The notes under the pieces were generated by a model. That model did no database searches and was not told where the DNA came from. It saw only the letters and a program-made list of their open reading frames with translations. This document shows, in pieces, positions 29,666-48,576 of a stretch of DNA of 64,000 nucleotides. The DNA is from Desulfovibrio intestinalis (GTDB lineage: Bacteria > Desulfobacterota > Desulfovibrionia > Desulfovibrionales > Desulfovibrionaceae), in NCBI RefSeq assembly GCF_014202345.1, contig NZ_JACHGO010000003.1, positions 248,001 to 312,000 on the forward strand, given 5' to 3'. The first letter of the stretch is position 1; each line of letters begins with the position of its first letter. The position numbers and the translations under genes were made by a program.

Positions 29666-29875
29666 TTAGGGATTTTTTTTGATAAATTTACCACCAAGTT
29701 TTATTGATTCTTGTAGGAGGCTGGGGTGAATCATAACCCCTTTTGCTAATCTTTCCGCTCTCGGCTTTAAAGCCTTCTGTAGCATCTCAATCTTTTTTGT
29801 TTTTTTTTGGGTGCCCATACGGGTAAGACCACCATGGGCGCAAAGCGTCAAGCATGCCGCCGGATGTGCCGCCAC
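29666..29875 (-). CDS. possible +1-frame continuation of the terminal phage-cluster gene
   Basis: An open minus-strand frame carries KKIEMLQKALKPRAERLA and ends LGGKFIKKNP. It lies one frame off from the 68-residue gene at 29787-29993. The two frames meet in a 9-base A run (minus strand, 29800-29808); losing one A would join them into one protein of about 107 residues. It has no good ribosome binding site of its own. It may therefore be the 3' part of a frameshifted or slippage-read gene. Confidence 0.45.
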   Translation of the reverse strand: MAAHPAACLTLCAHGGLTRMGTQKKTKKIEMLQKALKPRAERLAKGVMIHPSLLQESIKLGGKFIKKNP

Positions 29876-29993
29876 CAGCGTCCGTAGCGCTGTTCAGGGC
29901 GGCCGCAGCAACCAGCGTTCCCTTGGCAAAAGCCTCTGACGCGCGCCATCCGTCTGTTCCGGCAAAAAATCCGGCACCTCTGCCTCCGCCCAT
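29787..29993 (-). CDS. small Gly/Ala-rich phage-cluster protein
   Basis: The product is 68 residues (MGGGRGAGFFAGTDGWR...), ending in PKKNKKD just after a homopolymeric A run. AAGGAGG lies 7 bases before the ATG, and the start overlaps the stop of the preceding gene (TAATG), so it is surely translated. The family is unknown. It is the last gene of the leftward cluster. See 29666-29875 for the probable continuation in another frame. Confidence 0.6.
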   Translation of the reverse strand: MGGGRGAGFFAGTDGWRASEAFAKGTLVAAAALNSATDAGGGTSGGMLDALRPWWSYPYGHPKKNKKD

Positions 29994-30646
29994 TACGCAG
30001 CCTCCTTGCGAACTGAAAATGCGTAATATGGCACTTCAATCAGTTCTGGCCCGTCATTACGGTAAGGGCCAAAAATATCATCCGTCATCCGGCTGTAGTT
30101 GACGATGGTTTGTGGCTGGAGCGTTTCAATCATAACAGCTAACCCCTGTTTGAAATATTCCCTGTACTGCTTGTTGCGCAGTAGCCCATTGGTGCTGACT
30201 GCCACGGTTCCCCCCTTGGGAAGGCCTTCAAAAGCAAAAGCATAGGTGCGTTCGTCTCCCCAGCGAACATTGGGAATGATTGGCACACCCTCGCGTTGCA
30301 GCCAAAAGGCCAGTGCCCTGTTGCGGTAGGTGTTCCATATCTGCATAGCCAATGGCATTTCACGGTATACGCTGAAGTCTGGCGTAATCACGCCAGCAAT
30401 TCGCTTGAATATGGGCAGATAGCGTTTGGGGTTATTCCAGACACATTCAAAGATATGGTCATGCGTGTAGAAGTGCAGCCAGTTTTTACTGGTTGCCTTG
30501 CTGTATATTTTTTCAAAAGGAATAGCATGCGCAGGTTTGAAGTGAACCGGCTCTAACTGCGGCAATTCAAAAATCGGGCTGAACTGCGCTTTTTTAACCA
30601 GCTCGGATTTGAATACATCATAGCGTTGATGACGTGAGCGCTTCAC
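29993..30646 (-). CDS. DUF4417-type phage protein
   Basis: The product is 217 residues from a GTG preceded by AAGGAGG (4-base spacing); the frame is open to a TTG at 30664. Motifs: YDVFKSELVKKAQFSPIFELP, IPFEKI-SKATSKNWLHFYTHD, VITPDFSVYREMPLAMQIWN, GVPIIPNVRWGDERTYAFAF and GTVAVSTNGLL. This fits the DUF4417 family found in phages and mobile elements, whose function is not established. It lies after a terminator at 30734-30774, so it may be separately transcribed cargo of the cluster. Confidence 0.72.
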   Translation of the reverse strand: MKRSRHQRYDVFKSELVKKAQFSPIFELPQLEPVHFKPAHAIPFEKIYSKATSKNWLHFYTHDHIFECVWNNPKRYLPIFKRIAGVITPDFSVYREMPLAMQIWNTYRNRALAFWLQREGVPIIPNVRWGDERTYAFAFEGLPKGGTVAVSTNGLLRNKQYREYFKQGLAVMIETLQPQTIVNYSRMTDDIFGPYRNDGPELIEVPYYAFSVRKEAA

Positions 30647-30733
30647 AATGCCTCCTTGAAGCAAAGAGGTTTTGTTCGTTTTTCAGTAAAAACTATCAGA
30701 GCATCCCCCAAAAAAAGTTTTAGGGGGTGGGGC

Positions 30734-30774
30734 GTGGGGGAGGAGACCCTTTTTCAAAAGGGCCCCTCCCCCAC
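30734..30774 (-). terminator. terminator after the gp14-like gene
   Basis: GTGGGGGAGG...CCTCCCCCAC stem of about 17 pairs on a C/G-rich background. It is followed on the minus strand by a second short CCCCC/GGGGG stem with a T run (CTTTTTTT). Confidence 0.75.
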
Positions 30775-30780
30775 AAAATA

Positions 30781-30849: not shown

Positions 30850-31425
30850 TCAGGGCAGCAACGGGCCACGCGTGCCAAGGGTGTAGAAGTTGCGCCCCAC
30901 GCGGTTGGCACCGTTGAGCAGGGTAGTAGTCAGGCCCAGATAGTCGGTCTGTGCGTGATTGTTGAGATTTTCGGCATTCAGGGTTGCCCCTGTGGACTGG
31001 TTGCGCAGGTTCCAGGCGCGAACCTGCTGGTTATATGAGGCGGCATTGCCTTGCTGTTCCTGAGCCAGGGCGTCCAGTTCGCCTTTTTCTGCGGTATCAA
31101 GGTTCAGATCCAGTTGACTTCCGGTCCCCACTTGTGCGCCCGATGTTGACGCCTGCGCTCTTTGCCCGCCAATAATGCGCGCAACTTCCTGACGTTTTTT
31201 TACTGCGGCTTCATATCCGGCCTGCTTTTCCTGCCGGGCGGCCTCGTCCGCCAGGGTGGCGCTCTGTTCAGCCTGTTGTGCGCTGCGTTCAGCCAGTTTG
31301 GACTGGTATTCTGTCTGCTGGCGGCGGCTTTCAGCCTGTTGGATGGAACTGACCGTGCCCACAGCGGCTCCGGCCAGAGCTACGGCTGCGCTGATGGCAG
31401 CGGCAGTACTTGTTGTAATGGCCAT
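30850..31425 (-). CDS. internal virion/core protein, T7 gp14-like
   Basis: The product is 191 residues from the ATG at 31425 (AAGGAG upstream). A hydrophobic N-terminus (AAAISAAVALAGAAVGTVSS) is followed by a long Gln/Ala-rich coiled coil (TEYQSKLAERSAQQAEQSAT). This pattern is typical of podovirus gp14-type ejection proteins, which leave the virion to form the channel for DNA delivery. Its start overlaps the stop of the GNAT-like gene (TGATG). The usual large partners gp15 and gp16 are not evident. Confidence 0.65.
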   Translation of the reverse strand: MAITTSTAAAISAAVALAGAAVGTVSSIQQAESRRQQTEYQSKLAERSAQQAEQSATLADEAARQEKQAGYEAAVKKRQEVARIIGGQRAQASTSGAQVGTGSQLDLNLDTAEKGELDALAQEQQGNAASYNQQVRAWNLRNQSTGATLNAENLNNHAQTDYLGLTTTLLNGANRVGRNFYTLGTRGPLLP

Positions 31426-31883
31426 CAGCAAAGCTCCTTGTGCCAGATGGTTTCGGTATGGCGCGCGCCCAGACGGCGGTACAGGGCGTCACAGGGCCGT
31501 GAGGCGGGTGAACTGTATTGCACAAGACCTGCGCCGCGTTGCCTGAGTTCCGCTTCGGCATGGCGCAGCAGGTTCAGGGCAGTGAAGCCACCGCGAGCTT
31601 GCGGGGCCAGGTACAGCCCGTCCAGCGCCGCCAGAAGCGTGCCCTGCCTGTGTGGGCAGGAAACAAGGGTAAAGGCCGCATAGCCCGCCAGATTTCCATC
31701 GGGTGTGCGCGCCGCGCTGACGTGCAGCATATCCAGATTTTCAAGGCAGGCGTACCGCTCTGCGTCCAGGCCAAAGTTTGTATTATTGTGCAGTGGGGCC
31801 TCCACCTCATGCCAGTGCGCAGCGGTAAGAAGCCGGGCTTCAGGTTCCAGTTTTGTAAAAGATTCTGTGGCAAAGGCCAGCAT
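31425..31883 (-). CDS. GNAT-fold acetyltransferase-like phage protein
   Basis: The product is 152 residues. A GNAT core is visible: GNLAGYAAFTLV (beta strands), LDGLYLAPQARGGFTALNLL (motif A, Q/R-x-x-G-x-G/A region) and a C-terminal LYRRLGARHTETIW. Proteins of this kind occupy the gp13 position in some podoviruses. The substrate is unknown. AGGAG lies 7 bases before the ATG. Confidence 0.6.
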   Translation of the reverse strand: MLAFATESFTKLEPEARLLTAAHWHEVEAPLHNNTNFGLDAERYACLENLDMLHVSAARTPDGNLAGYAAFTLVSCPHRQGTLLAALDGLYLAPQARGGFTALNLLRHAEAELRQRGAGLVQYSSPASRPCDALYRRLGARHTETIWHKELC

Positions 31884-32033: not shown

Positions 32034-34115
32034 TCAGGAAAAGTTCACTTCCAGCACCAGCGAAAGCAGGCGGAAGGGCAGGGGCCTGTCCTGAACCAGC
32101 CAAAGATTATCCGAGGCTGTCCATGTGCCGCCGGGGGCAAAGGATACGTCGCCGGAATAGGGCAAAATTGCCTGCCCCCAATACTCCGGCAAAAAGGGCA
32201 AGTCATAGAGTTCCTGCCTGCCGGGGCCGTATTTACCGCCAACACTGCGGTACAGGCGGGCGGTACACATGCCGTGGGCACGCTGGCGGCCAAGGGTTGT
32301 GCCGGAAGGGCCGTCCAGCTCTATAGGCAGAGAGGCGAGCGCCGAAGCATAGGGCAGGCCAGCCTGCGCCACGCTGGTTGCATAGGGCAGTTCAATGCCG
32401 CCTTCGTGCACCACGCAGCCTTCCACCGGGCTGCCGTCTGCCAGCACGGCCAGTTCGCATCCTTCAAGATGGTCCAGGCCGTCCAGCCGGGTTGCAGGCT
32501 GCTCCGGGCGCAAGGTCAGGCCGCAGTCTACAAAAAAGGCCTCCTCAATGGGTTCGTGATCCTGCCACTGCGAGGCAAGGCGTTCCAGAAAAATACGGCT
32601 CTGCCCGTTTATGTGGCGCTCTACCACCAGCATAAGGACATCGCCATTTTCGCCGGAAACAGCGGCGATGGAGAGCACCCGTCCGTCTGTGACCTGCCGC
32701 GACCAGCCCCAGATGTCGTGCTCCTTCATATAGGTAAAGGCCAGCAGCAGGCCGTCATCGCGCAGGCACCAGATAGTGGAGCCGGGTGTCTGCTGATAGG
32801 CCCATTGTAAAATAGTATGCCCTTCAAAAAGGTGCGGAGCCATGATGGAAAGGTCGTTGCCCGCGTAGCCGTCTTTTTCCAGCGAATAGAAAAGGTCGCG
32901 CACGCGCGAGCCGTGCCGCTGCACATGCAGAATGGAGTTGCCGATGATTATGGGCGCAAGGCCCGCGCTGCCCCAGTAGCTTTGCGCCGTGATGCTGATG
33001 TTGCCCGGCGTGATCGCCGTGCCGTCGCCCCCTGTGGCCTTGTATTCGCTGCCGGACGTGCCAATGAGCAGATCGCCAAAGCTGGCCGCCCAGGTGACGG
33101 CGTCTATGGAGCCCGATGCAATGAGGTATTCCACAGGATCATCATTCTGCAAGGGGCGCGATTTACGAAAGTTTTCAAAATCTCCCACCCGTGACATGTA
33201 GAATGCCTGCGGATTTTTTGGTGTGGCCGCCAGCACCATGCGTTGTTGATGAAAAGTCACCACACCGGGATAGTTGCCGTCAGCAAAGGGATTCCAGTCT
33301 TCTTTCGGGGTGTCGGCGGTATCGGCCTGATAGTTTTGATCGCTGAAATTCAGGCCCGCCGACACGCCTATAAAACCAAAGTAGCCCGCTTCTTCACGGT
33401 AAATGTTGTATTCCACTGCACCAGCGACAGCGGGCCAGGATATGGCGGCGCTGTTGCCCTGCACCCAGTCGGAAGGGTGGCGGCCATTGGTGCATTGCCC
33501 GGCAGGCGAAGCAAGGGATTCGCGCCCGTTGGCATCTACAGCTGCCACCTTGTAGCGCAGGGTGTAGCTGCCCGCTGTGCCGGAAAATGTCACAGTGGGT
33601 GTAGGCGGAGCTTTTATGGATGTGTTGAGGGCTACTGCTTCCAGATGCCAGGAATACGCTGCCTGCCCGTTTGTGGAGCCTGTATTTCCAGACTCGGAGC
33701 TGTTTTCCGCATCCCGGCGTATTATTTTGTGCAGGGGGTGGTTGCTGTGAGCGAGGTACACAATGTCCCCCACCTGAGCGTAGGATATGTCCAGCAGTTC
33801 ATTGGGCGCGTAAGGAGTTGCAATGGCAGCAACGTCTTCAAGCCCGCGCTCGCTGGCAATGCGCAAGCTATGGTCGCCCAGAACCAGAACGAAATTTTGT
33901 TTGGCAAGGGCGTTGAAACTGAAAGGAATAAGCACGGAATACCCGCCCATATCCGCCACAAAGCGCGTGCCGGGCCGCCGGGCAGCGTCGCCGTGCAGGC
34001 CGGGCAGCATGTTTTCCATGCAGGAAAGGCAGTTACGGTACCGCGCCAGATCATAGCGAGCGTACAGGGTGGGCGCGATTTCGCCGCCTGTAAAATTTTG
34101 CAGGGCTGTGCGCAT
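32034..34115 (-). CDS. tail tubular protein B-like (gp12-type) virion protein
   Basis: The product is 693 residues. The start, MRTALQNFTGGEIAPTLYAR, is shared by many podovirus tail/stabilisation proteins, followed by YRNCLSCMENMLPGLHG. A fibronectin type III-like segment lies at about 165-255 (PTPTVTFSGTAGSYTLRYKV). The remainder is beta-rich, with VGDFENFRKS and ITAQSYWGSAG. It is expected to form the nozzle of the short tail. AGGAG lies 6 bases before the ATG. Confidence 0.75.
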   Translation of the reverse strand: MRTALQNFTGGEIAPTLYARYDLARYRNCLSCMENMLPGLHGDAARRPGTRFVADMGGYSVLIPFSFNALAKQNFVLVLGDHSLRIASERGLEDVAAIATPYAPNELLDISYAQVGDIVYLAHSNHPLHKIIRRDAENSSESGNTGSTNGQAAYSWHLEAVALNTSIKAPPTPTVTFSGTAGSYTLRYKVAAVDANGRESLASPAGQCTNGRHPSDWVQGNSAAISWPAVAGAVEYNIYREEAGYFGFIGVSAGLNFSDQNYQADTADTPKEDWNPFADGNYPGVVTFHQQRMVLAATPKNPQAFYMSRVGDFENFRKSRPLQNDDPVEYLIASGSIDAVTWAASFGDLLIGTSGSEYKATGGDGTAITPGNISITAQSYWGSAGLAPIIIGNSILHVQRHGSRVRDLFYSLEKDGYAGNDLSIMAPHLFEGHTILQWAYQQTPGSTIWCLRDDGLLLAFTYMKEHDIWGWSRQVTDGRVLSIAAVSGENGDVLMLVVERHINGQSRIFLERLASQWQDHEPIEEAFFVDCGLTLRPEQPATRLDGLDHLEGCELAVLADGSPVEGCVVHEGGIELPYATSVAQAGLPYASALASLPIELDGPSGTTLGRQRAHGMCTARLYRSVGGKYGPGRQELYDLPFLPEYWGQAILPYSGDVSFAPGGTWTASDNLWLVQDRPLPFRLLSLVLEVNFS

Positions 34116-34126
34116 GCGTGCTCCTG

Positions 34127-34645
34127 TTATATTTGCGGCATTTCGGGCCAGGGAGTGGACGACCCGCCGCCGTCAAATGGTGCGCCCTCCTGCGCGGGCA
34201 GATCGCGCAAAAGCTGGCGGTAGGCCTTGATAACCACAAGCTCTTCCGAGGTGATGGGGTAGTCTGCCAGCAAATATTTGTCAGAGGCTGCAAGGCGGCC
34301 ATCGCGCAGCTCACGCAACCGTGACGCTCTGGCGGCCACACAGTTGTATTCGGCAAGGCGGGTAGTTTCGGCTGCGACCTCTTCGGCGGCACGAGTGGCG
34401 GCTTCTTGCTCCAACCGTTCTTTTTCTGCCTGCCAAAGGGCTACGTAGGGAGCCACCTCCTCATCATAGGCTGTAGTGTCGGCGGCTGACAGCGGCCAGT
34501 TGTAGTCGTCAACCCACTCTATGTAGCCTGTTTTTATCATCCACTGGATTGCATGAAGGTTGACTGGGTGCGGAAATTCAAACACCAGCGGAACGCCGTC
34601 TACCATAATCAGGTTGTCACTAGGCACAACAGTCACTGTAGGCAT
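34127..34645 (-). CDS. tail-fibre assembly chaperone-like protein
   Basis: The product is 172 residues. The N-terminal part (VDGVPLVFEFPHPVNLHAIQ) is followed by a helical stretch WQAEKERLEQEAATRAAEEV, a tryptophan/aspartate-rich middle and a helix with LRDGRLAASDKYLLADYPIT. The ASDKYLLADYPIT-type segment is typical of phage tail-fibre assembly (DUF4376/XkdW-like) proteins. It directly follows the fibre gene, with its start two bases from the fibre stop, the usual order for fibre plus chaperone. Confidence 0.65.
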   Translation of the reverse strand: MPTVTVVPSDNLIMVDGVPLVFEFPHPVNLHAIQWMIKTGYIEWVDDYNWPLSAADTTAYDEEVAPYVALWQAEKERLEQEAATRAAEEVAAETTRLAEYNCVAARASRLRELRDGRLAASDKYLLADYPITSEELVVIKAYRQLLRDLPAQEGAPFDGGGSSTPWPEMPQI

Positions 34646-34646
34646 T

Positions 34647-36044
34647 TCATACCACCTTTATTACAAAATCCATTGCGAAATAAGGCATCATGTTAGATGT
34701 ATTGGACGCTAACGCATTAGACATACTGTGGATATGTCCTCCGCTGTCGCCCTGGGCGCCTGTGGTACCCCCAACCAAGCTGTTGAACAGTCTCCCGGCT
34801 GAACCGCCACTTGCCTGATTCTCTTGCCCGTAATGCGGCGGGTACGTGTAATAGTGCCCATGACTGGGCATCTGTGCGGTTGAGATGGTAGTTGCGTCTA
34901 CATTGCCCGTGATTGTGTGTGTATGCTTGGACGTGCCGGCCAGCGCTCCCGCCGGGTTCGCGGTGTCTGTGCCAAGCAAAACTCGTCCAGTTAAGTTTGG
35001 CACCACCCCAGAAATCCCATCAGTTCCACCGTCGCACTTTATCCAGTCTTCCCTTGCCTGCGTTTCGCCGGGCATAATAGCCCGTCTTCCGTCGCTGCCC
35101 CCGAAAGTTACTCCCCATACGGGAACAGGCACGCATGGCGGAAAAGCGTCCCAGTATGAAACGTTCAGCGCGCCGCCATCGGCAATGGTTAAACCCAGGC
35201 CCGGTTTGACGGTGCCGGGTTTTTCGGAAGAGGCGAAGTCTACGGGGGTGACAGAAATCGTTCCATTATCCTCTGCGGCAATACCTTCGCCAATCTTGAC
35301 AAAACCAAGCTTATCAACCGTGGCTGGGCCGATATTACTCATATTTTGCGCCCTGTCGGCTTCTGCCCGTGCTCTGTCAGCCTCGGATGCGGCACGGGCA
35401 AGTTCGCTTGCCATAGCCTCGTGAGCTTTATCTGCAGCAACCTCGGCAGCACTTTCAGCCCGGTTAGCCTCGGATTTTGAACGGTTGGCTTCAGCCCCGG
35501 CCCTGTCTGCTTCTGATGCAGCCCTGTGCGCTTCGGCCTCAGATTTGTTGGCTTGCGTTGCAGACTCCTCTGCTGCGTTTTTCGAATGTATGGCAGAGGC
35601 CACTGAGGCATCCCGGCTGGCATACACGTCCTGCACAACATCCTGTGGTGTTTTGTCACTTGTGGCTGGAAGGATGACGGCGCGGCGCATCATTTCCATA
35701 GTTTGCTGGCGTTCAGCCGCTGCCTGATCCAGGGCATCTTCAATAACCTGGGGGTCAAAGCGCGAGGCGCTGACCAGATTTACCTCCTGCGTGAAGGGCA
35801 TGTCGCGGGTGATGGCCAGCTTCCAGCCAGCGGGCAGGGGGGCGGCATCGTGCAGGTAGACGATTTCGCCGCCGGACGCTCCAATATCCGCTGTCCAGCC
35901 GGAGGCCCCGGTGGTTACTCCTGCTGGGGAAGTGAGTGTGACCACAAGTTGTGACGCGTCCCACACCTTGAAGCTGAAGGGAAAGCGCGTGGCCGCGTCG
36001 TTGCCCTCATAGACGGCCCGGCTGGGACTATATGGCATGGTCAT
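34647..36044 (-). CDS. tail fibre protein
   Basis: The product is 465 residues. The N-terminal 150 residues resemble the T7 gp17 virion-anchoring domain (YEGNDAATRFPFSFKVWD). Residues about 150-235 are an Ala/Glu/Ser coiled coil with a repeating EA-RAxSEADRA pattern. The C-terminal receptor region has the tail-collar signature WIKCDGGTDGISGVVPNLTG and a HTHTITG/HGHYY/GGHIHSM series of histidine-rich, metal-binding repeats as in phage fibre tips. GAGGA lies 7 bases before the first ATG. It determines host recognition. Confidence 0.85.
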   Translation of the reverse strand: MTMPYSPSRAVYEGNDAATRFPFSFKVWDASQLVVTLTSPAGVTTGASGWTADIGASGGEIVYLHDAAPLPAGWKLAITRDMPFTQEVNLVSASRFDPQVIEDALDQAAAERQQTMEMMRRAVILPATSDKTPQDVVQDVYASRDASVASAIHSKNAAEESATQANKSEAEAHRAASEADRAGAEANRSKSEANRAESAAEVAADKAHEAMASELARAASEADRARAEADRAQNMSNIGPATVDKLGFVKIGEGIAAEDNGTISVTPVDFASSEKPGTVKPGLGLTIADGGALNVSYWDAFPPCVPVPVWGVTFGGSDGRRAIMPGETQAREDWIKCDGGTDGISGVVPNLTGRVLLGTDTANPAGALAGTSKHTHTITGNVDATTISTAQMPSHGHYYTYPPHYGQENQASGGSAGRLFNSLVGGTTGAQGDSGGHIHSMSNALASNTSNMMPYFAMDFVIKVV

Positions 36045-36077: not shown

Positions 36078-36668
36078 TCAACGTGTGGCAAGCCAGGAAT
36101 CCTCCGCCGGTTTTTCGCTGCGTTCCGAAGCTGCGGCCTCACGCGCCGGGGGCAGGCTGACGGTATAGAGCTGTTCCAGTTCAGCGGCTTTTTGCCCATT
36201 GCCCTTGAGCAGAGGCACGGCAACAAGTGCGGCCAGCTTGCGGGCCAGCATGTGGGCGAAAAGATCGTCAAACAGGCGGCTGTTGCGCACGTCTTCGGTG
36301 TACAGGAGCAAGGCGCGCGAGGCATTGGTCAAAAGCAGCGAGCCGTCGCCTGCCGCATTGAGCGCAAGGCAGAATGGCCGGGCAGAGATGCCCTCGTGCC
36401 GCACTTCATGCACTTTGAGGCAATTTTCTGGCAGGGCGTAGGCAAAGCGGTATTCCGGCGCATAGCCCTGGGGCAGTGCCTGCAAGGCCAGCCACGCCCT
36501 GCGCTGGGCGAAGCTCCACGGAAAATCCCGCAGCACCTGACGCCGGGCAGAATCCCAGTACAGGCGGCACTGCAAAACTTCGGGCGTGCTTTCGCGTTCA
36601 GATGCCACGCTGCGTGCGCCCAGAAAGCCGAGAGCGCGGTTCCAGATGTCTATCTGGCTGATGGTCAT
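36078..36668 (-). CDS. tail tubular protein A-like (gp11-type)
   Basis: The product is 196 residues from the ATG at 36668, set by GGAGG 4 bases upstream; the frame is open to 36788. The start TISQIDIWNRALGFLGARSV is followed by LYWDSARRQVLRDFPWSFA, the standard signature of podovirus adaptor/tail tube A proteins. These join the portal to the nozzle. It is transcribed after the terminator at 36701-36728, so it either has its own promoter or relies on read-through. Confidence 0.82.
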   Translation of the reverse strand: MTISQIDIWNRALGFLGARSVASERESTPEVLQCRLYWDSARRQVLRDFPWSFAQRRAWLALQALPQGYAPEYRFAYALPENCLKVHEVRHEGISARPFCLALNAAGDGSLLLTNASRALLLYTEDVRNSRLFDDLFAHMLARKLAALVAVPLLKGNGQKAAELEQLYTVSLPPAREAAASERSEKPAEDSWLATR

Positions 36669-36991: not shown

Positions 36992-37435
36992 CTAACCGAC
37001 CATCAGCGCCTTTTCATAGGGCAAATCTTCCTCACGCAGCAGCGCGGAAAAAATATGGCCCTGCGTCACGCTTTTGCCGCTCACGGGGGTGAGCGTGAAC
37101 GTCAGGCGCAGCCAGCTTTTGCGTACCCCCTGAGGCAAAAAGCGGTGGTAGGGACGGGCTCCAGCAGTCAGAGCAGGATTTTCCGCCGTATTGGGCACGC
37201 TGACGGCGGCTCCGGGCACGGCTGCCCAGGGGCCGCTTGCGGCATCGGCTTCTTCAAGGCCGATGGTCAGGGACTGCACCTCTTCGGGCTTGAAAGCCTG
37301 CGTCACGGAGAGACGCAGGGGCATGGGCTCCATACGGCCCGGCAGCTTGAGCGCGTTGAGAGCCACGGCTGTTCCCGTGGTACTGGCGGTAAGCGGGCCT
37401 TCAAAAAAAATGGAATTACGATCAATAATGGCCAT
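36992..37435 (-). CDS. capsid cement protein, Bbp16-like
   Basis: The product is 147 residues from MAIIDRNSIFFEG (AAGGAG 5-8 bases upstream; the frame is open to 37504). It is predominantly beta, with PLRLSVTQAFKPEEVQSLTI and RPYHRFLPQGVRKSWLRLTF. Position right after the major capsid gene and the overall pattern match the capsid-decorating protein of Bordetella phage BPP-1. Identification is by layout and weak similarity. Confidence 0.6.
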   Translation of the reverse strand: MAIIDRNSIFFEGPLTASTTGTAVALNALKLPGRMEPMPLRLSVTQAFKPEEVQSLTIGLEEADAASGPWAAVPGAAVSVPNTAENPALTAGARPYHRFLPQGVRKSWLRLTFTLTPVSGKSVTQGHIFSALLREEDLPYEKALMVG

Positions 37436-37709: not shown

Positions 37710-38699
37710 CTATACAATACCTTCGTTGCCCAGCACGGCATCGCACTGGCGCACGGGGCGGCCATGCAGTATGGGAATCGCCTTGGAGTCAAAGAATTCT
37801 CCGTACTGCAACTGCACGTTGCCCGCGTCAGAATTTTGCAGTTCCAGAGCCGTGAGCACATCGGAATTGGCGTACCACACGGCCTTCTGGCGCAAGTGCT
37901 GGGGCATGCGGTTTTTGGCCTCAATGGTCAGCTTTTGCAGGTCAATAAAGCCGCTCTGGCCCTTGCGCTTGCCAAGGGCCGCCAAAGGCAGGTTGGCAAC
38001 GCGCACCACGGCGCGCCAGTCGCGCACGGCCAGGCCGCAGCGCCAGTTGTACTTGTCGCCCACCACCTGATATTTGCGGCCATCGGGGTCTTGGGCCATG
38101 TAGGTGTTGAGATCTTCGTGCGAAAGTCCGCCCGTGCTGCTCTTGGGGTAAATGCCGTGCACGGCCTGAGCGCCCCAGGAGATAAGCCAGAGCGACGTGC
38201 AGCCGCCTTCGTCACGCCCGCCCGCGTCCAGCACGTTTTTGGCGTCCTGCGCGGGATAGCGCATGGAAAGACCGTTGAATTCGTCGGGGTTGATGTTGCT
38301 GTTGCCGTAAAAAAGCGTGGCGGCCACTTTCTGACGCATGGCCTCGGCAAAGGCCACGCCTTCACTCATGCGAAAAGCCTTGTCGCGGCTGCCGTAGAGG
38401 CGCAGCTCTTCCACATCCAGTTCCATAATGGCCTCAAGAATGCCGCAGCCTTCCTTGACCTGCCCCCACTGGGATTTGGATGGCGGGGTGCCCTGATAGA
38501 GCCTGCGCCAGTAAACTTCAGGCAGCCCCGTGCGAATGCGGGTGAGATGCCCGTCGCTCTGGTTGGATTCCATCCAGAGCACGTCGTCCATAATGTCGTT
38601 GGTCTTGTTCATCAGCTCGATGATCTGACCAGCCTTGTCGCCACGGTAAAACTGTTCCATTTCCGCCAGAGAAACCACAAGACCTGCAGAGCTGGACAT
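37710..38699 (-). CDS. major capsid protein, BPP-1 type
   Basis: The product is 329 residues from MSSSAGLVVSLAEMEQFYRG (GAGG 5 bases upstream; the frame is open to 38798). It carries family-like blocks EVYWRRLYQGTPPSKSQWGQ, MELDVEELRLYGSRDKAFRM, FYGNSNINPDEFNGLSMRY and VQLQYGEFFDSKAIPIL. This is the HK97-fold capsid of the BPP-1-like podovirus group. No N-terminal delta domain is evident; the gene transcribed just before it is the likely scaffold. Confidence 0.85.
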   Translation of the reverse strand: MSSSAGLVVSLAEMEQFYRGDKAGQIIELMNKTNDIMDDVLWMESNQSDGHLTRIRTGLPEVYWRRLYQGTPPSKSQWGQVKEGCGILEAIMELDVEELRLYGSRDKAFRMSEGVAFAEAMRQKVAATLFYGNSNINPDEFNGLSMRYPAQDAKNVLDAGGRDEGGCTSLWLISWGAQAVHGIYPKSSTGGLSHEDLNTYMAQDPDGRKYQVVGDKYNWRCGLAVRDWRAVVRVANLPLAALGKRKGQSGFIDLQKLTIEAKNRMPQHLRQKAVWYANSDVLTALELQNSDAGNVQLQYGEFFDSKAIPILHGRPVRQCDAVLGNEGIV

Positions 38700-42091: not shown

Positions 42092-42613
42092 TTAAGCGTC
42101 TGCGCGTTCAGCCAGATCTTGTGGCGTGCAGAGCACCATCACACCGTCCACATGACGTTGTTTGCGCGCATGCCAGCAGGCTTGCGGCAAGCGGCCCATG
42201 ACGCGAAAACCACAGGCCTCGGCCAGACGCCATGCGTGACGGTTGGGCGCAGGGCACAAACCAGCAATGGCGGCACAGTCCAGATGGGCGAATGCCCAGG
42301 CCAGACCACCGTAAGCCATGTGGACGGCCAGCCGCGCGGCCGTGCGGAACGTGGTGCAGTCGAATTCCCAAACCTTGCCCCGGCGGGGCGTAAAAAGGGC
42401 GCAACTCAGCATGGCTTCGTTGTCGGTAGTATTGTCAGCGGCATAGCAGCAGAGCAGCAAGCCGCGGCGCGGAGAGGTAATGCGCCGCCAATCAGCCAGC
42501 GTGGGCGCGTTGAATGCGCTCATGGCGCAACCCAGCAGGCCTTCTGCCTGCATGCGTAAAAAAATGGCGTCCCGTGTGGCCCGGCTGACGGCAGGTGCGT
42601 AGTGAAAAAGCAT
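42092..42613 (-). CDS. GNAT-like phage protein
   Basis: The product is 173 residues. GNAT-like features: an ISPRRGLLLCCYA-like strand (here ITSPRRGLLLCCYA), FRTAARLAVHMAYGGLAWAF and the C-terminal NRHAWRLAEACGFRVMGRLP, which is the acetyltransferase pattern of a helix ending in a CGF turn. The substrate is unknown. Its start overlaps the terminase stop. It is the second GNAT-type gene of the cluster and is not closely similar to the one at 31425. Confidence 0.55.
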   Translation of the reverse strand: MLFHYAPAVSRATRDAIFLRMQAEGLLGCAMSAFNAPTLADWRRITSPRRGLLLCCYAADNTTDNEAMLSCALFTPRRGKVWEFDCTTFRTAARLAVHMAYGGLAWAFAHLDCAAIAGLCPAPNRHAWRLAEACGFRVMGRLPQACWHARKQRHVDGVMVLCTPQDLAERADA

Positions 42614-43953
42614 CAGGAGCCTCCAAAGACATCATAATGGGTTTTGGCGCGGCGTTGGCCGCCTTGTGTGTCCTGCGGCGGGCGAAAGCCCGTGGCCGCA
42701 TAACGCAGGGCGTCTGCCGCGTGGCTGGTCCAGTCGTGCAGAGGGCCGGAACCAGCAGCCTGTTGCCCTGGCCTCCACTGCCGTCTGTATGCCCGCAGGG
42801 CCTTGATGCCTGCGGCGCAAAAGCTGGCGTCAAACCAGCAACGGGGCAGGCGGCGGCGCACGGCGTCAATGCCGTCTGCCAGACTCAACGCCGGGGCCAG
42901 GGTAAAGCGGATGCCAAGCTGGGCCGCGCTTTCCCATCGGCTTTGGCCTGTACCCAGTTCCCGCACCCGGATATCGTGCGGGGCCAGATGCGTGCCGTAG
43001 GTAAAGCCCCGGCCAGCAATGCCACCCTCTGATGTTCCTTCAAGGGCGGGCTGCCCGGCGGGACGCGCTTTCTGGGCCAGAACATGCGCATAGTGGGCAA
43101 GCCCTTCGCCCGAGGCTTCGTAGTAGTCCACAAACCGCCAGTGCCCTGAAGGCTCCACCTGAAAAAACCAGATGGACGTGGCGTCATCCATGCCCAGATC
43201 CCAGGCCGTATGCACGGGGAGTTCCGGCGCATGGGGGAGGGGAATTATACGGCCCTCACGATCTGCCGTATCCATTAAAGGTGCGTAGTAGGAACCGCGT
43301 ACGGCGGCGGCAAAGGAGCACTCAAATTCCTGCTGATATTCGGCTTCATCCATACTGAGCCGCGCCGCCGCCAGTTCACTTTGAGGCAGATAGCCCGTTT
43401 GCGAGGCGGGAAACCGGAAGCGGGACCATAATCCCTCCGTGTCGGCCCCGGCCTGCTGCCAGACATCGTAGAGAAGGTTGTCTGTGCCTTGCGGCGTGCC
43501 GCAAAACAACGCCCGGCCCAAACGGTCAGCCAGCATGGGCCGGAAAACCTGCGTCCAGACCTGACGCGGCATGTCGGCTGGTTCGTCCAGCACAAGATCA
43601 TCCAGATACAGGCCACGCAGGGCCGGGGCATTTTCAGTGCCCAGCAGGCGTATGCGGCCCCCGGTGGGCAGAATGCACACGAGCTCGCTTTCCAGGAAGC
43701 GCGAACCTGGTATGACCCCGGCAAAACGCTTGCAGTAATCCCAGGCCACAGCCTTGGCCTGCCCCTGAAAGGGCGCGGCATAGGCTGCCCGCCAGTCTTC
43801 ACGGCCAGAAATCAGCGCTTGCCTGATGAGGTCGTTGACCGCAGCCACGGTTTTGCCGAAGCGCCTGTGGCAGAGCAGCACGCAAAAGCGCTTGCGTTCT
43901 TCGTGAAACTGCCATTGCAGGGGGCGTGGGCTGTAGGGAATGACATGCGGCAT
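42613..43953 (-). CDS. terminase large subunit
   Basis: The product is 446 residues. The ATPase has the modified Walker A CHRRFGKT (residues 29-36) and Walker B LYLDDLVLDEPADM, then the coupling motif LFCGTPQGTDNLLYD. The C-terminal RNase H-like nuclease starts at AWDLGMDDATSIWFF, with its acidic residues retained. It packages DNA into the prohead through the portal. The motifs look intact, so packaging should be functional. Whether it packages specifically or by random headful is the key question for the gene-transfer hypothesis. Confidence 0.9.
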   Translation of the reverse strand: MPHVIPYSPRPLQWQFHEERKRFCVLLCHRRFGKTVAAVNDLIRQALISGREDWRAAYAAPFQGQAKAVAWDYCKRFAGVIPGSRFLESELVCILPTGGRIRLLGTENAPALRGLYLDDLVLDEPADMPRQVWTQVFRPMLADRLGRALFCGTPQGTDNLLYDVWQQAGADTEGLWSRFRFPASQTGYLPQSELAAARLSMDEAEYQQEFECSFAAAVRGSYYAPLMDTADREGRIIPLPHAPELPVHTAWDLGMDDATSIWFFQVEPSGHWRFVDYYEASGEGLAHYAHVLAQKARPAGQPALEGTSEGGIAGRGFTYGTHLAPHDIRVRELGTGQSRWESAAQLGIRFTLAPALSLADGIDAVRRRLPRCWFDASFCAAGIKALRAYRRQWRPGQQAAGSGPLHDWTSHAADALRYAATGFRPPQDTQGGQRRAKTHYDVFGGS

Positions 43954-43979
43954 GTGCGTGAAGCCTCCTGCGTGATCTT

Positions 43980-44161: not shown

Positions 44162-44446
44162 TCAGGACGCCACATTTTTTTCCAGATGCGTGCCTTTGCC
44201 CGACGACGAGCTGGCGGGCCCGCCCCATACCACCATAATTTTCGGCGGCGCTTCGGGCGCATCTTCTTCACGCAAGGAGCGTAAAATGGCGTGCAGCTCT
44301 TTTATTTCCTTGACGATGTCTATGCTTTTTCCGGCAACTTCAGCCTCGCCAAGGGTGCTTGTGAGCAGGTCAAGGCGTTGCTCCAGACTGTCCAGCAGGC
44401 GAGCGCTTTTTTTGCTCTTTCTGTTGCGTGGGGACACCGGAGGCAT
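44162..44446 (-). CDS. probable terminase small subunit
   Basis: The product is 94 residues. It has a basic start (SPRNRKSKKS), a helical centre (RLLDSLEQRLDLLTSTL, then IDIVKEIKELHAILRSLREE) and a Pro-rich tail. The position one gene before the large terminase and the helical makeup suggest the small subunit that selects DNA for packaging. It is shorter than typical ones and lacks an obvious helix-turn-helix. Start overlaps the previous stop (TGATG). Confidence 0.5.
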   Translation of the reverse strand: MPPVSPRNRKSKKSARLLDSLEQRLDLLTSTLGEAEVAGKSIDIVKEIKELHAILRSLREEDAPEAPPKIMVVWGGPASSSSGKGTHLEKNVAS

Positions 44447-44865
44447 CAGTGGTTTTCTCCATCTGCGGCAAGGCCGGATTTGCGCAAAAAGGTGTTCTGG
44501 CTGACGGGCGGGATGAGGTGCAGGCGGTCTTCCTGCCGCTCCAAGCCGTGCTCCAGCCTTTCCAAAAGGCGGTCCAGGCCGGAAATGCGAACATTCAACG
44601 CCTGTATTTCACCCCGCAAAGTAGAAAGTTCGTTGTGCAGACCAGCCAGGTCGGCATTGCCCGGCGTAAGGCGCAGAGTTTCTTCCAGAGCGCCGAGACG
44701 GCGGCAGGTGGCTGCATCACGCCGGGCGTCACGCTGCACATGCAGCAGGTAGTCGTCCTGACGCACAAAAGCGCGGCGCAGGCTCCAGAGCGCCCAGGCA
44801 AAAAGTCCCTGAACGCCAAGCACCAGCAGAGATGCGCCGGATGAAGAAAAAATGTCCATTGTCAT
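44446..44865 (-). CDS. DUF2730-like membrane/coiled-coil protein, possible spanin
   Basis: The product is 139 residues from the ATG at 44865 (GGAG 6 bases upstream). One membrane segment lies near the N-terminus (about 9-27), then a coiled coil (STLRGEIQALNVRISGLDRL). This is the usual shape of DUF2730 proteins found beside phage lysis genes, and it could serve as an inner-membrane spanin. No lipoprotein partner was found. Confidence 0.55.
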   Translation of the reverse strand: MTMDIFSSSGASLLVLGVQGLFAWALWSLRRAFVRQDDYLLHVQRDARRDAATCRRLGALEETLRLTPGNADLAGLHNELSTLRGEIQALNVRISGLDRLLERLEHGLERQEDRLHLIPPVSQNTFLRKSGLAADGENH

Positions 44866-44898
44866 ACATATCTCCATAAAGGCTGCAGGGTACTGCAG

Positions 44899-45210
44899 TC
44901 AGAATCCCAGCCCCAGCATGCCCAGAAGCAGAGTCATCACCTGATCCAGAGCCGAAGGCGGCAGGTTTTTGGCCCATTGGGCGAAGAACAGCGGCACAAT
45001 GACCAGTCGGCCCACAACTTCCCAGCAAAACAGCAGGGCCAGCACCCAGCCAAGAAAGGAACGCCACAAACGCATGCGGCTGGCGGGCGCGCCCGAAACT
45101 TCCGCTTCATTGATACGGCTCTGGGCCTCGTTTTGCCGATTGCGGTCGGGCACGAATCTGTCTGCCAACCCGGAAAGCCCGCCAAACAGTTTGCCAAGCA
45201 GCATCCACAT
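44899..45210 (-). CDS. holin, 3TM gene-transfer-release type
   Basis: The product is 103 residues. An amphipathic start (MWMLLGKLFGGLSGLADRF) and a charged linker lead to two strong hydrophobic segments (FLGWVLALLFCWEVVGRLVI and, after PPSALDQ, VMTLLLGMLGLGF). The WRSFLGW pattern recalls the three-helix holin family first named from gene transfer agents. It would perforate the inner membrane to free the endolysin. Its start overlaps the endolysin stop. Confidence 0.7.
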   Translation of the reverse strand: MWMLLGKLFGGLSGLADRFVPDRNRQNEAQSRINEAEVSGAPASRMRLWRSFLGWVLALLFCWEVVGRLVIVPLFFAQWAKNLPPSALDQVMTLLLGMLGLGF

Positions 45211-45893
45211 CAGCTGTCCTCCCTTTCAAGTTCCGCGAGGTATTGGTTCATGGCCTTGACCCGGTTGCGCCAGCCCGCAAGAAAAACCTGCATCGAGGGT
45301 CTGCGCGCGGCGAGGTCGCGATAAAATGTGTCGCGCAGGCGCAGTGTTTGGCGCGCTGCAAACCAGTGCTTGCCGCCTTGTTCCAGCGCTTCTGCCAGTT
45401 GAGCCGTGCGGGGGCCTATAACGCCGTCTTCGGCAATGGCGGCGTAGGCATCCAGTTCCGCGTCGCCCACAGTATTCATGGCCCTCTGCATCTGGCGCAC
45501 TGCCCGCGCCGGCCCCATATTCACAGCCGCGTCATAAAGGGTCACGGCCAGCGGCAGCGGCAAGCCGGAGCAGCCGAGTTTGTCCCAGAAATGTTTTTTG
45601 AACAGGGCGGCGGCCTGAGCCTTGGTGCAGGCGCGGATGTCATCGCCATCCACGTCACCGTCCATATCCATATCAAGGCTGTGGTAGCCGCACTTGGAGG
45701 TACGCGCGTCGGTGCAACCGTCACAGCTGCGGGCCTGGTGCAGGCAGTCTTCACGCGCCTGACGGGCCAGATCCTGCACCCAGCGTAGCGACACGCCGTA
45801 TTTTGTCAGACCGCCGGGATCAGCGGGATGGTCAGAAAGGCCGCCTTCCCAGCGGGCGGTGAAGTCGTGAGCTTTTTGAAAAAATGCGGTCAT
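45210..45893 (-). CDS. endolysin, glycoside hydrolase 108 type, with an EF-hand-like insert
   Basis: The product is 227 residues from the ATG at 45893 (GGGAGA upstream; the frame is open to 45965). The catalytic motif RWEGGLSDHPADPGGLTKYG puts the general acid at Glu16, as in GH108 muramidases. Residues about 50-90 are an insertion with Cys50, Cys57, Cys60 and Cys68 and a 12-residue loop DMDMDGDVDGDD (74-85). That loop has every ligand position of a calcium EF-hand/dockerin loop. The C-terminal peptidoglycan-binding part has AIAEDGVIGPRTAQL. It cleaves the cell wall for particle release. It directly precedes the holin gene in transcription order. Confidence 0.85.
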   Translation of the reverse strand: MTAFFQKAHDFTARWEGGLSDHPADPGGLTKYGVSLRWVQDLARQAREDCLHQARSCDGCTDARTSKCGYHSLDMDMDGDVDGDDIRACTKAQAAALFKKHFWDKLGCSGLPLPLAVTLYDAAVNMGPARAVRQMQRAMNTVGDAELDAYAAIAEDGVIGPRTAQLAEALEQGGKHWFAARQTLRLRDTFYRDLAARRPSMQVFLAGWRNRVKAMNQYLAELEREDS

Positions 45894-46135
45894 GGCATGG
45901 TCTCCCGGTCTGGCTGCTGAAAGCGTTGCGCCGTCGTCATTGGCGGCGTGGGTACAACATGCCAAAAAGAGCGCTTGCGGTAAGACTGAACGGGTTCAGC
46001 ACCGCTATTTCCTTGTATGGCGGGGGTCAGCGCTGCTGAGAGCCCCTTCGCAGGCGAAAATTGAAATAAAAAAGCCCGCTATTTCGCGGGCATAAAAGTT
46101 TTTCTGCTTGTGTAATTTGTATATTTTGTATTGTA
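45894..46135. other. gap between Mor-type activator and endolysin genes
   Basis: Contains the terminator at 46074-46091. A late promoter activated by the Mor-type protein would be expected here on the minus strand, but no consensus can be assigned. Confidence 0.45.
46074..46091 (-). terminator. terminator after the Mor-type gene
   Basis: GCCCGC-TATTTC-GCGGGC followed on the minus strand by a run of seven T. It isolates the regulator from the lysis genes. Confidence 0.88.
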
Positions 46136-46783
46136 TTACATGTAGTTATGCTGGTTACTTTTGTGCGGGCCAATATCCCTGAGCTCTTGCAGCAGGTAGC
46201 CTTGCGATGGAGCTGATGTGGTTTTTTTGAGTATTTTCCATACTTGACGGTCAGACAGTCCGTGCCGTCGGGCCAGACTGGCTACGGCTGCTGTACTGCT
46301 GGTACCGCGCGCGGTATGGCGTGAAAAGGTTTCGATAATTTCTTGCTGGCGCAACTTGGTGAGAATGGAAGTACAGCGTGGAACGTAAACAGGTGTCCCA
46401 CCGAAGGCTGCCACCAGCTTACCTGCGCAGCGTTTTCCCAAGCGGCGCAGCAGGGGGTGGTGCCGTTCCGCGGGTACGGCTGCGGGCACACGTAGGGTCT
46501 GGCCACCATAGGCTTCAAACAGTCGCCAAAGGTCTTCCAATTGCCCCTTTTCGTGCCCGCCCAGCGCATGCCAGAGCTGCCGTATATTTTCTGGCAAATG
46601 CTCCAGCAATTGTTGCCAGCGTTTTTTCTGTTCCGCCTTTTGCATGGCCTGCCCCCAGGAGTGCCGCCCATTTGCGGAAGAGCTCGGTTTTTCGGCAAGC
46701 AGGGGCCTGCGCGTTGCGCTGGCCGTGCGGGCGGCGGCGCGTATGCGGCCAATGCCCGCCTGCGTGGAACTATTGGCGCACAT
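46136..46783 (-). CDS. Mor-family transcriptional activator
   Basis: The product is 215 residues from MCANSSTQAG (AGGAG 7 bases upstream; the frame is open to 46837). A basic N-terminal tail precedes the Mor domain: WQQLLEHLPENIRQLWHALG and LWRLFEAYGGQTLRVPAAVP. The C-terminal helix-turn-helix follows (STAAVASLARRHGLSDRQVW). Mor of phage Mu switches on middle/late transcription. Here it is followed by its own terminator and then the lysis-packaging-head genes, so it is likely the cluster's activator. It overlaps the preceding gene by 14 bases. Confidence 0.82.
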   Translation of the reverse strand: MCANSSTQAGIGRIRAAARTASATRRPLLAEKPSSSANGRHSWGQAMQKAEQKKRWQQLLEHLPENIRQLWHALGGHEKGQLEDLWRLFEAYGGQTLRVPAAVPAERHHPLLRRLGKRCAGKLVAAFGGTPVYVPRCTSILTKLRQQEIIETFSRHTARGTSSTAAVASLARRHGLSDRQVWKILKKTTSAPSQGYLLQELRDIGPHKSNQHNYM

Positions 46784-47045
46784 GACGAATCTCCTGAATG
46801 CCCTGTGCGATTCCGGCAGGCGCAGGCATGCCTGCAAGTTCTGCTGTGGCCTGGCATGCGTTTTGTGGCGATGTGGCCGACGGTATATGAGGCAGATTAA
46901 CAGCGGGGTCGTCTATGCAGCGAGCAAGAAGACGCAGGTGGTCGCCCATCAGACGGAGCACAGGTTTTTGGTCTGGATGGGCCGTATGTTGCAAGATATC
47001 CAGCACAGCGCTTAAGTTATCGATAGTATTGTGAAGTTCGGACAT
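46770..47045 (-). CDS. small phage-cluster protein, unknown
   Basis: The product is 91 residues. The first half is helical (LSAVLDILQHTAHPDQKPVL, then DHLRLLARCIDD); the second is Pro/Ala-rich. AGGGAG lies 7 bases before the ATG. It is the first gene of the leftward cluster, next to the divergent repressor. It may be an early regulatory or accessory protein; no motif supports a specific role. Confidence 0.6.
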   Translation of the reverse strand: MSELHNTIDNLSAVLDILQHTAHPDQKPVLRLMGDHLRLLARCIDDPAVNLPHIPSATSPQNACQATAELAGMPAPAGIAQGIQEIRHVRQ

Positions 47046-47354
47046 GCTATGCTCCCTGAAATGAATATGATGTGTCGGGGCGTATTGGAGGATTTATAAT
47101 GTTTTATTTCTTGAATCAAGGGAAAAGTTTTTTATTGAAAGAAAAGATTTAATCATAAGTATTTCAATGAAATTTTTAGAAAATTATACTGTAAAACGTA
47201 GGCTATTAGTGTGATTATAAGAGTTTGTAAAAAGAAAAGCTTGTAAAAAAAGATAATGGCGAATATAGTCAGAAAGGGTGAATAAAACCCCTTTTTAGGG
47301 GTCTGGATTTAAAAGAAAAGTTTTAAACCGGTAAGTACTGCCGATGGACGCGAC
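47046..47354. promoter_or_regulatory. AT-rich divergent control region of the phage-type cluster
   Basis: About 310 bases between the leftward Mor arm and the rightward repressor, far more AT-rich than its surroundings. It contains the micro-ORF at 47099-47152, several TATAAT-like hexamers near 47180-47225 and an ACCCC-TTTTT-AGGGGT hairpin at 47287-47302 that could be an operator. Expected to hold the repressor-controlled promoters of both arms. Confidence 0.6.
47099..47152 (+). CDS. micro-ORF, candidate leader peptide
   Basis: ATG at 47099 with a perfect GGAGG at 47087-47091 (7-base spacing) opens 17 codons (MFYFLNQGKSFLLKEKI) to TAA. It lies in the control region on the repressor strand. 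It could be a leader peptide or a tiny membrane-active peptide. A chance ORF cannot be excluded. Confidence 0.3.
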   Translation: MFYFLNQGKSFLLKEKI

Positions 47355-48032
47355 ATGAAAACAACAACAAGGGCGAGCTTGGCCAAAGCTTTTGCGCAGC
47401 GGCTGCGCCAGCAGCGTGAGAAACTGGGCATACACAAGCAGGATCTTGCCAGCAGGGTGGGGGTAAGCCTTACTACCATTCAGCAGTATGAAAAGGGGCA
47501 GATGCCCAAGGGCGAATTTGCGGTGCGCCTTGCTGATGTGCTGGATTGCTCTCTCGACTGGCTTTTGTCAGGTAAGGAGGCGGAAGGCGGCGGCAATCTG
47601 GGGGAAGGCGAAGCCAGGCTTGTTATGGTGCCTATGGTGGAGGCCAGGCTTTCCGCTGGAACGGGAAGTTTTGAAACTGGCGGGGAAGTGTTGCGGCACT
47701 ACGCCTTTCGCTGGGATTTCTTGCACCGCAAGGGCAACCCTTCGCAGATGGTGCTTTTGCGTGTTTCTGGCGACAGCATGCAGCCGCAGATCATGCACAA
47801 TGACGTGGTGCTGATAGATCAGGGGCAGCGCGATCCTGTGCCGGGGCGCATATACGCTGTGGGCGTGGAGGATATGGTGTATCTTAAAGTTGTCAACGCC
47901 AGACCGGGCAGGCTTATTCTTACCAGCTTCAACCCGGATTATGCGCCCATAGAGGCTGATACCGGCGAGCAACTGGCAGACCTTGTGCGCGTTATCGGGC
48001 GCGCCGTGTGGGTTGGACGGGAGTTGGACTAG
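47355..48032 (+). CDS. LexA/CI-type repressor with S24 autoprotease
   Basis: The product is 225 residues. The N-terminal Cro/CI helix-turn-helix has RLRQQREKLGIHKQDLASRV and VSLTTIQQYEKGQMP. The C-terminal S24 domain has the Ser141 nucleophile (VSGDSMQP) and Lys178 (VYLKVV). A possible Ala101-Gly102 cleavage pair lies in ARLSAGTG. Proteins of this class are cleaved on RecA activation, so the cluster should respond to DNA damage. It is divergent from the Mor arm. The ribosome binding site is weak. Confidence 0.9.
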   Translation: MKTTTRASLAKAFAQRLRQQREKLGIHKQDLASRVGVSLTTIQQYEKGQMPKGEFAVRLADVLDCSLDWLLSGKEAEGGGNLGEGEARLVMVPMVEARLSAGTGSFETGGEVLRHYAFRWDFLHRKGNPSQMVLLRVSGDSMQPQIMHNDVVLIDQGQRDPVPGRIYAVGVEDMVYLKVVNARPGRLILTSFNPDYAPIEADTGEQLADLVRVIGRAVWVGRELD

Positions 48033-48318
48033 GCAGGAAGGAGCAAGCGTTTTTTCTGGTATTTCAGCGGTGAACTTTCTTTTTATTTGGGTCGAGTATC
48101 GTAAAAATACACTTCCACATAAAAAGCTTGCTCGCCTTGATATAATAGAAAGCTCGTCTTGTGGCGGCACGGTTTGAGTATTTAGCCTTAAAAAAGCTCA
48201 AATGCCAAGCGCCGAACCCGAGAGCAGCGTGCCGTAACACGCTGTGAATTCTGCCGAAAACGTATTTTCCGGCAGAGTGGCAACGTTGAAATATGAAGTA
48301 TTTCAACGTCAGAAGGCT
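48033..48318. other. gap right of the repressor with repeat-like hairpins
   Basis: Contains TTCTGCCGAAAA-CGTA-TTTTCCGGCAGA (48249-48277), a close relative of the hairpin at 16473-16502. Next comes AACGTTGAAATA/TATTTCAACGT (48282-48309). No gene was seen. Confidence 0.5.
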
Positions 48319-48576
48319 CTAGTTTTTGAGCGAAGGTCTCGGGGGGGCCTCTGGCGCCGGGCTGGCGTCCTGCTCGTTACTATTTGCCAGGTTACGGTTC
48401 CAGGCACGGATGGCTGCAGCTTGCGAAACCGACCACTGCTGTGAAGTCTGTCCGCATGAGCAGACTACGCGCCAGACTTCCTGTCGTCTTCCTGGCGGCA
48501 ACAGGGATTCCAAATGAACATTAGTGCCGCCACAGGCCAGGCAGGGGCGGATCGTGTGCGGATCAAGCTCTTTCAT
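48319..48576 (-). CDS. Lar-like small zinc protein of phage type
   Basis: The product is 85 residues. CLACGG and VCSCGQ zinc knuckles are followed by AAAIRAWNRNLAN, the C-terminal signature of Lar/restriction-alleviation-like phage proteins (AIxAWN). It is the outermost phage-like gene on the right. The function here is unproven. No strong ribosome binding site is visible, so expression is uncertain. Confidence 0.6.
   Translation of the reverse strand: MKELDPHTIRPCLACGGTNVHLESLLPPGRRQEVWRVVCSCGQTSQQWSVSQAAAIRAWNRNLANSNEQDASPAPEAPPRPSLKN

Follow-up and report, generated by a model that had tools for sequence, protein, structure and literature searches.

The 64,000-nucleotide stretch of the Desulfovibrio intestinalis genome analyzed here (the window; contig NZ_JACHGO010000003.1, positions 248,001 to 312,000; source genome of 3.44 Mb in 16 contigs) contains a compact cluster of short-tailed (podovirus-type) particle genes. 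It is very probably a domesticated, vertically inherited gene transfer agent (GTA) cluster and the orthologue of the putative island for Dd1, one of the first GTAs described. The conserved unit (positions 30850 to 48032, ~17.2 kb) comprises 21 genes, 20 on the minus strand and an S24 repressor gene on the plus strand (Table 1). Read along the minus strand, the order is a leader gene (46770), a Mor-type activator, endolysin, holin, a DUF2730-like protein, small terminase (TerS), large terminase (TerL), a second GNAT-like protein (GNAT2), a phrog_831 protein, portal, and a Bbp19-like protein, followed by scaffold, capsid, cement, tail tube A, fibre, fibre chaperone, tail tube B, GNAT1, and a T7 gp14-like internal virion protein (ivp14). 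Hidden Markov model (HMM) scans covered 30 open reading frames (ORFs) between 27694 and 50520, from a listing of 167 in the window, against Pfam, and 20 of those also against PHROGs. They returned family matches for the particle, lysis, repressor, and Mor gene types that a first-pass annotation of this DNA had claimed, with the cement protein recognised from its matches to the Carin1 decoration protein (8cjz) and the BPP-1 cement protein (3j4u) and TerS assigned from its position and its counterpart in locus L032 (see below). That annotation ran the cluster from 29666 to 48576; the particle genes do lie there, but the edges did not hold, the DUF4417 and "lar" genes being outside the core. Indeed, "lar" remains beside the bof genes in three genomes (G065, G029, and G025) where the cluster sits elsewhere. 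The true starts of the capsid, cement, and tail tube A genes probably lie inside the longest ORFs.

Table 1. Features of the cluster and its immediate neighbours (window coordinates)
Feature	Position	Strand	Evidence	Remark
DUF4417 protein	29993..30664	-	PF14386 2.1e-58	accessory, outside core; absent or partial in most loci examined
Internal virion protein, T7 gp14-like (ivp14)	30850..31431	-	phrog_418 1.4e-16	
GNAT acetyltransferase-like protein 1 (GNAT1)	31425..31883	-	PF00583 1e-4	retained in most loci
Tail tubular protein B-like (tubeB)	32034..34115	-	phrog_376 3.9e-161	
Tail fibre assembly chaperone	34127..34645	-	PF16778 4.2e-20	
Tail fibre	34647..36044	-	phrog_1640 6.9e-16; several tail-fibre PHROGs matched	most variable structural gene
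Tail tubular protein A-like (tubeA)	36078..36668	-	phrog_394 2.5e-41	start moved from ORF start 36788, inferred from relatives
Capsid cement/decoration protein	36992..37435	-	PDB 8cjz 1.5e-10 (sequence); Foldseek 8cjz 4e-6, 3j4u 1.6e-3	start set at MAIID
Major capsid protein, GP7/BPP-1 type	37710..38699	-	PF20911 6.1e-100; PDB 8cjz, 3j4u, 3j40	start adjusted
Scaffold/protease-like protein	38926..39651	-	phrog_458 1e-24	
Bbp19-like phage protein	39581..39925	-	PF25181 1.4e-6	
Portal (head-to-tail connector)	39925..41802	-	PF12236 8e-152	
Small conserved phage protein	41805..42017	-	phrog_831 0.0015	in most loci
GNAT-like protein 2 (GNAT2)	42092..42613	-	phrog_4470 3.9e-4	
Large terminase (TerL)	42613..43953	-	phrog_2 1.3e-35	
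Small terminase (TerS)	44162..44446	-	no family match	from position and L032 counterpart of 125 aa, 13.5 kDa
DUF2730-like protein	44446..44877	-	PF10805 4.3e-5	slightly below cut-off
Holin, three transmembrane segments	44899..45210	-	PF11351 GTA_holin_3TM 4.2e-6	above cut-off
Endolysin (GH108)	45210..45965	-	PF05838 2.2e-22; PF09374 1.3e-9	
Mor-type late transcription activator	46136..46837	-	PF08765 8.9e-13	start uncertain
Small leader gene	46770..47045	-	no family	first of operon; in minority of distant loci
Three operator-like repeats	47135-47153, 47228-47246, 47309-47327	+	consensus TTTAAAAGAAAAGTTTTAAA	
S24 repressor, CI/LexA type	47355..48032	+	PF00717 2.4e-19; PF01381 2.6e-15	
Lar-like zinc-finger protein	48319..48576	-	PF14354 below cut-off	host neighbour, outside core

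The absences claimed earlier for this locus also stand. No integrase, transposase, excisionase, or replication family scored above cut-off among the scanned ORFs, ARAGORN found no tRNA in the window, and no direct repeats of at least 20 nucleotides are placed like attachment (att) sites in 28300 to 49300, where the sole strong pair (28406/29027) belongs to a duplicated gene segment. This segment is part of a tandem duplication (28406 to 29326), to the left of the cluster, of a gene of 146 to 149 aa with unknown function. Megablast with 20.5 kb of the element recovered no match in the phage collection, and all 227 records obtained there by tblastn with the portal fall below 60% identity. Bordetella phage BPP-1, Carin1, and phiV10 have portals ~37 to 39% identical to that of the cluster, and in type their capsid and cement proteins agree with it as well; they are, however, complete phages of ~39 to 42 kb, whereas the cluster is ~17 kb and has no phage-type early region. 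An assignment of TerL to PF05876 was discarded, this family having no match in the window's own genome (G000), and TerL belongs to another family. The same genome carries a second, distant portal gene (G000:C5:313818-315377; 29% identity), presumably from another prophage.

A prophage relative in genome G021, adjoining ftsZ (named by eye), illustrates the contrast with a temperate podophage. It encodes an integrase (PF00589; 7.7e-27), a repressor, a CII-like protein, a replication initiator, an exonuclease, RecT, and a Rha-like regulator, and it resembles the cluster in TerL (68% identity), tail tube B (68%), portal (49%), and capsid (68%). The cluster has none of its integration and replication genes, nor the two proteins of 631 and 2355 aa that the prophage carries behind ivp14. 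The larger of these has a PHROG match, to a family of unknown function, and the smaller has none; their position and size make them likely DNA-ejection proteins. Neither had a match in 9 of 12 cluster-positive genomes, and in the other three (G000, G017, and G065) the matches lie at other loci (partial in G000 and G065; 80% identity for the 2355-aa protein of G017), so there is no conserved ectopic copy.

To trace the distribution of the cluster, we searched 79 genomes of the genus with the capsid (threshold, 1e-20) and recovered matches in 36. In 32 of these there is a copy at 84 to 100% identity, one such copy apiece and all free of internal stops, and four (G035, G018, G012, and G021) have only copies at 66 to 70%. 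Portal searches matched 23 of 61 genomes, all 23 within the genus, and none of the 24 genomes from elsewhere in the order. A scan over contigs of named genomes turned up 48 loci, with D. piger ATCC 29098 among the sources; L046 and L048 are D. piger loci. Two capsid-positive genomes, G011 and G075, were left out of the loci fetched, and G007 and G034 are represented by loci L054 and L053. Two additional capsid genes (67% and 43%; G063:C29 and C20) occur in G063 in addition to the copy of at least 84%. Related clusters, seemingly between host genes, are present in metagenome-assembled genomes of Desulfovibrionaceae (L060:5578-15100 and L073); in L060, Mor is the first cluster gene, preceded by a host-like ORF of 1378 aa, and no repressor was found upstream.

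The history of the cluster follows that of its hosts. The species tree, built from rpoB, included 51 of the 79 genus genomes and two outgroups, the others being less than 90% complete or having rpoB missing or fragmentary. In it, 29 positive genomes fall in one clade alongside 13 genomes without a copy of at least 84%, and the nine genus genomes outside this clade are all without such a copy. A concatenated tree of TerL, portal, capsid, tubeA, and tubeB from 28 genomes with a cluster of at least 84% and rpoB has 20 of 25 splits in common with the rpoB tree (2000 label shuffles: mean, 0.18; maximum, 3). It recovers all 12 rpoB splits with support of at least 0.95, without conflict between splits supported at that level, and distances correlate closely across the 28 genomes (Mantel r = 0.973; 0 of 5000 permutations reach it). 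These counts exclude G021, G018, and G035, with their 66 to 70% capsid copies; G007 and G019 were short of markers or rpoB. Inclusion of the former three (G035 being among the 29 "ingroup" taxa) gives a Mantel r of 0.84 and 17 of 28 shared splits. Taken singly, 17 cluster genes (8 to 29 genomes each) all correlate with rpoB, 16 of them with 0 of 1000 permutations and the fibre with 1 of 1000, and 14 of the 17 show no supported conflict. Between the window and G017, dS (synonymous divergence) is 0.58 for TerL, 0.40 for the capsid, and 0.48 for rpoB, as expected from shared descent.

Chromosomal position tells the same story. Across 28 loci (27 fetched and the window), 21 have bof and/or mdt-type efflux genes directly past the repressor, which marks the ancestral site, and in seven loci a clpB and/or dnaJ-type gene adjoins the other end of the cluster (it is 15 kb away in the window). 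With this site retained and no mobility genes among the scanned ORFs, the element is fully endogenised. G021, the sister of the window's group, is without an 84% capsid copy at this site but retains a remnant there. One flank of it consists of ivp14, GNAT1, the tail tubes, and a portion of the fibre, and the opposite flank is the repressor; the 12 middle genes have given way to a 3-kb filler in which a transposase-like ORF and Mu-like ORFs were recognised by eye, without a family search.

The cluster is under purifying selection. Median dN/dS (ratio of nonsynonymous to synonymous rates; up to 11 close pairs) is 0.046 for the capsid, 0.051 for the repressor, 0.060 for TerL, 0.070 for tubeA, 0.073 for the holin, 0.10 for the endolysin, 0.13 for the portal, 0.16 for TerS, and 0.23 for Mor, with rpoB at 0.032 for comparison. 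The fibre (0.27; five pairs) is the fastest-evolving structural gene with at least five pairs besides the scaffold and the operon's first gene, the leader, which stands at 0.31 (five pairs, two at 0.70 and 1.11). Individual pairs in the D. piger-like group are higher (cement, 0.65 to 0.71; holin, 0.77). The cross-strain comparison of synteny and dN/dS that the first-pass annotation had proposed thus favors its preference for domestication over recent decay, as do vertical inheritance and the early region lost relative to the prophage relative. The inactivating mutations that it named as grounds for rejecting its view did not appear: frames are open across relatives, the exceptions to the lack of decay being G019 and G021.

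The regulatory region is conserved as well. The SAG motif and the GDSM and YLK residues, which act in self-cleavage in this family, are retained in the repressor across the aligned loci. Three repeats around AAAGAAAAG lie ahead of the window's repressor, the window having six such words against 0.70 expected. A motif matrix built from 11 sites of 7 loci and applied to 29 loci placed an operator-like motif upstream of the repressor in all 29, the top upstream site beating all others in the surrounding 13 to 63 kb. Because the upstream regions are AT-rich, we added dinucleotide shuffles for the 22 held-out loci, which are related and not 22 independent events: in 20, at most 3 of 300 shuffles reach the top score (G063, 4; G072, 20). 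In the window's genome, three of five motif matches stand before this repressor, which gives no sign of a wider regulon. The operator-like word CATAAAGAAAAGTTTGAAA occurs in identical form at two positions away from the cluster, G000:C6:143427 and G021:C1:1590472.

The link to Dd1 comes through L032, an IMG/VR contig with all 21 core genes in an order identical to that of the window and a TerS ORF of exactly 125 aa (13.5 kDa). Its taxon number, 643348538, is presumably that of D. desulfuricans ATCC 27774. In that strain, the putative Dd1 island spans Ddes_0702 to Ddes_0725 (PMC5701242), and its predicted small terminase, Ddes_0720, likewise has 125 aa and 13.5 kDa (PMC6854486). The TerS match and the IMG taxon number, rather than a named record, are the grounds for equating L032 with ATCC 27774. 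On its collinearity and the TerS size, within one genus, we take the window cluster as an orthologue of the Dd1 island. Dd1 particles have been known from Desulfovibrio since 1987 and are said to hold DNA of 13 to 14 kb; on that figure the ~17.2-kb core might be too long for one, which is among the weaker arguments of the first-pass annotation. The earlier statement that no firm assignment of the Dd1 genes existed needs amending: a putative one has been published, for which those reports apparently give no experimental proof (PMC5701242, PMC6854486). In ATCC 27774 the island is described as being expressed in a condition-dependent manner, with nitrate repressing it up to 100-fold (PMC5701242). 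Titles and abstracts disclosed no genus-wide study of the cluster, and an earlier assignment of Dd1 genes (Rapp & Wall 1987; Lang 2012) is still possible; PMC6209664 does not mention Desulfovibrio. One short-tailed particle of D. piger has been remarked on as perhaps a podovirus or a GTA (PMC12724379).

By the published definition, a GTA is a caudoviricete-derived particle that carries mostly random host DNA, is endogenised and vertically inherited with a genome too long to package whole, and delivers its DNA (PMC9662315). The HMM, PDB, and Foldseek matches establish the caudoviricete-derived particle proteins, and the host and cluster phylogenies are congruent save for G018. For the packaging step, the 14 TerS orthologues are short (74 to 125 aa) with a conserved helical core, and the window TerS is modelled as a two-helix hairpin with no further domain (mean per-residue confidence [pLDDT], 61.5), in agreement with the remark that Dd1 TerS has no detectable DNA-binding domain (PMC11841831). 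We propose that the S24 repressor would hold the divergent promoter through the AAAGAAAAG repeats until inactivated, probably by RecA-assisted self-cleavage by analogy with CI and LexA; the Mor-type protein would then drive the late operon. TerS, without a recognisable DNA-binding domain, may allow TerL to package chromosomal DNA with little regard to its sequence until heads are filled; the holin and endolysin would lyse the producer, and the particle would attach to kin via the variable fibre.

Several observations weigh against this interpretation. Forty-three of the 79 genomes have no capsid match and 47 no copy of at least 84% (several of these are incomplete), so the cluster is dispensable. 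Among the 28 loci, the efflux genes are inverted beyond the repressor in two (G026 and G068), four clusters lie elsewhere (G065, G029, G025, and G073), and that of G019 is truncated; the flanks on both sides are common to G065, G029, and G025, which suggests one relocation for these three. Supported conflicts with rpoB appear in the fibre (two, in only eight genomes), tubeB (one), and GNAT1 (one). The G018 cluster adjoins the same clpB/dnaJ, yet its portal is 50% and its capsid 70% identical, a divergence that strict vertical descent does not explain; in-situ replacement is possible. In the concatenated tree, G018 (L063; L144 and L145) groups with the G021 prophage. The TerS model is weak, and a short TerS in which no DNA-binding domain is recognised fits random packaging without establishing it; both such packaging of host DNA and its delivery are inferences from gene content. 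A CI-like repressor is also unusual among well-studied GTAs, which are said to be generally not inducible in the manner of prophages (PMC11409702).

Part of this evidence could also be read in other ways. The intact terminase, capsid, and lysis genes are what a working temperate phage or satellite would keep if integration and replication were encoded elsewhere or supplied by a helper of the G021 prophage type, a complete relative also seen in G017 through its 2355-aa protein. Mobility of this kind is hard to square with a fixed chromosomal site in most loci and a host-like tree, full-length helpers were not general among the genomes searched, and both the repressor and the motif ahead of it stay uniform from one species to the next, in contrast to known phage immunity regions; we regard this alternative as quite improbable. 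Slightly less probable still is a cryptic prophage in recent decay that has lost its early region while its particle genes are not yet inactivated. The lack of integration and replication genes in the scanned ORFs, the truncated versions in G021 and G019, and the fragmentary DUF4417 of several relatives would suit it, but co-diversification with the hosts, dN/dS of TerL, capsid, and repressor close to that of a core gene, 32 capsid copies without internal stops, and conserved operator-like sites would not.

The lysis genes and the fibre, which evolves fastest among structural genes with at least five pairs, scaffold and first gene apart, might instead serve a phage-derived killing or lysis device for bacterial competition, with DNA packaging incidental. 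The strong constraint on terminase, portal, and capsid speaks against this, the least probable alternative, and tailocins are not known to have heads or terminases.

The paper that classified GTAs took in three groups with an established genetic basis, namely, those of the Rhodobacterales, Bartonella, and Brachyspira (PMC9662315). RcGTA and the other classified GTAs (Rhodogtaviriformidae and others) likewise have endogenised particle genes that co-diversify with their hosts and a short TerS without a recognised DNA-binding domain (PMC9662315, PMC11841831); RcGTA particles, however, are siphovirus-like with genes at five loci (PMC11409702), whereas here a single cluster with a CI-like repressor encodes a short-tailed particle. 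FpGTA of Faecalibacterium, presented by its authors as the first GTA-like element with podovirus-like morphology, differs by its description in having two operons and a Gram-positive gut host (PMC12946183). The GTA kind and the putative Dd1 island were already known; new here are the evolutionary evidence and the conserved switch. As a tentative and rather doubtful extension, this GTA lineage might be as old as the desulfuricans-piger clade, with one conserved switch and a particle that, without the two large proteins after ivp14, may deliver DNA by a reduced or different route, and might merit a viriform family of its own. Its genus-wide distribution and host-congruent history are what the evolutionary part of the GTA definition calls for (PMC9662315), and the locus supplies concrete genes (terL, capsid, and repressor) for a Dd1-type GTA. 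The finding is relevant to the question of capsid-borne DNA exchange among gut Desulfovibrio, D. piger included.

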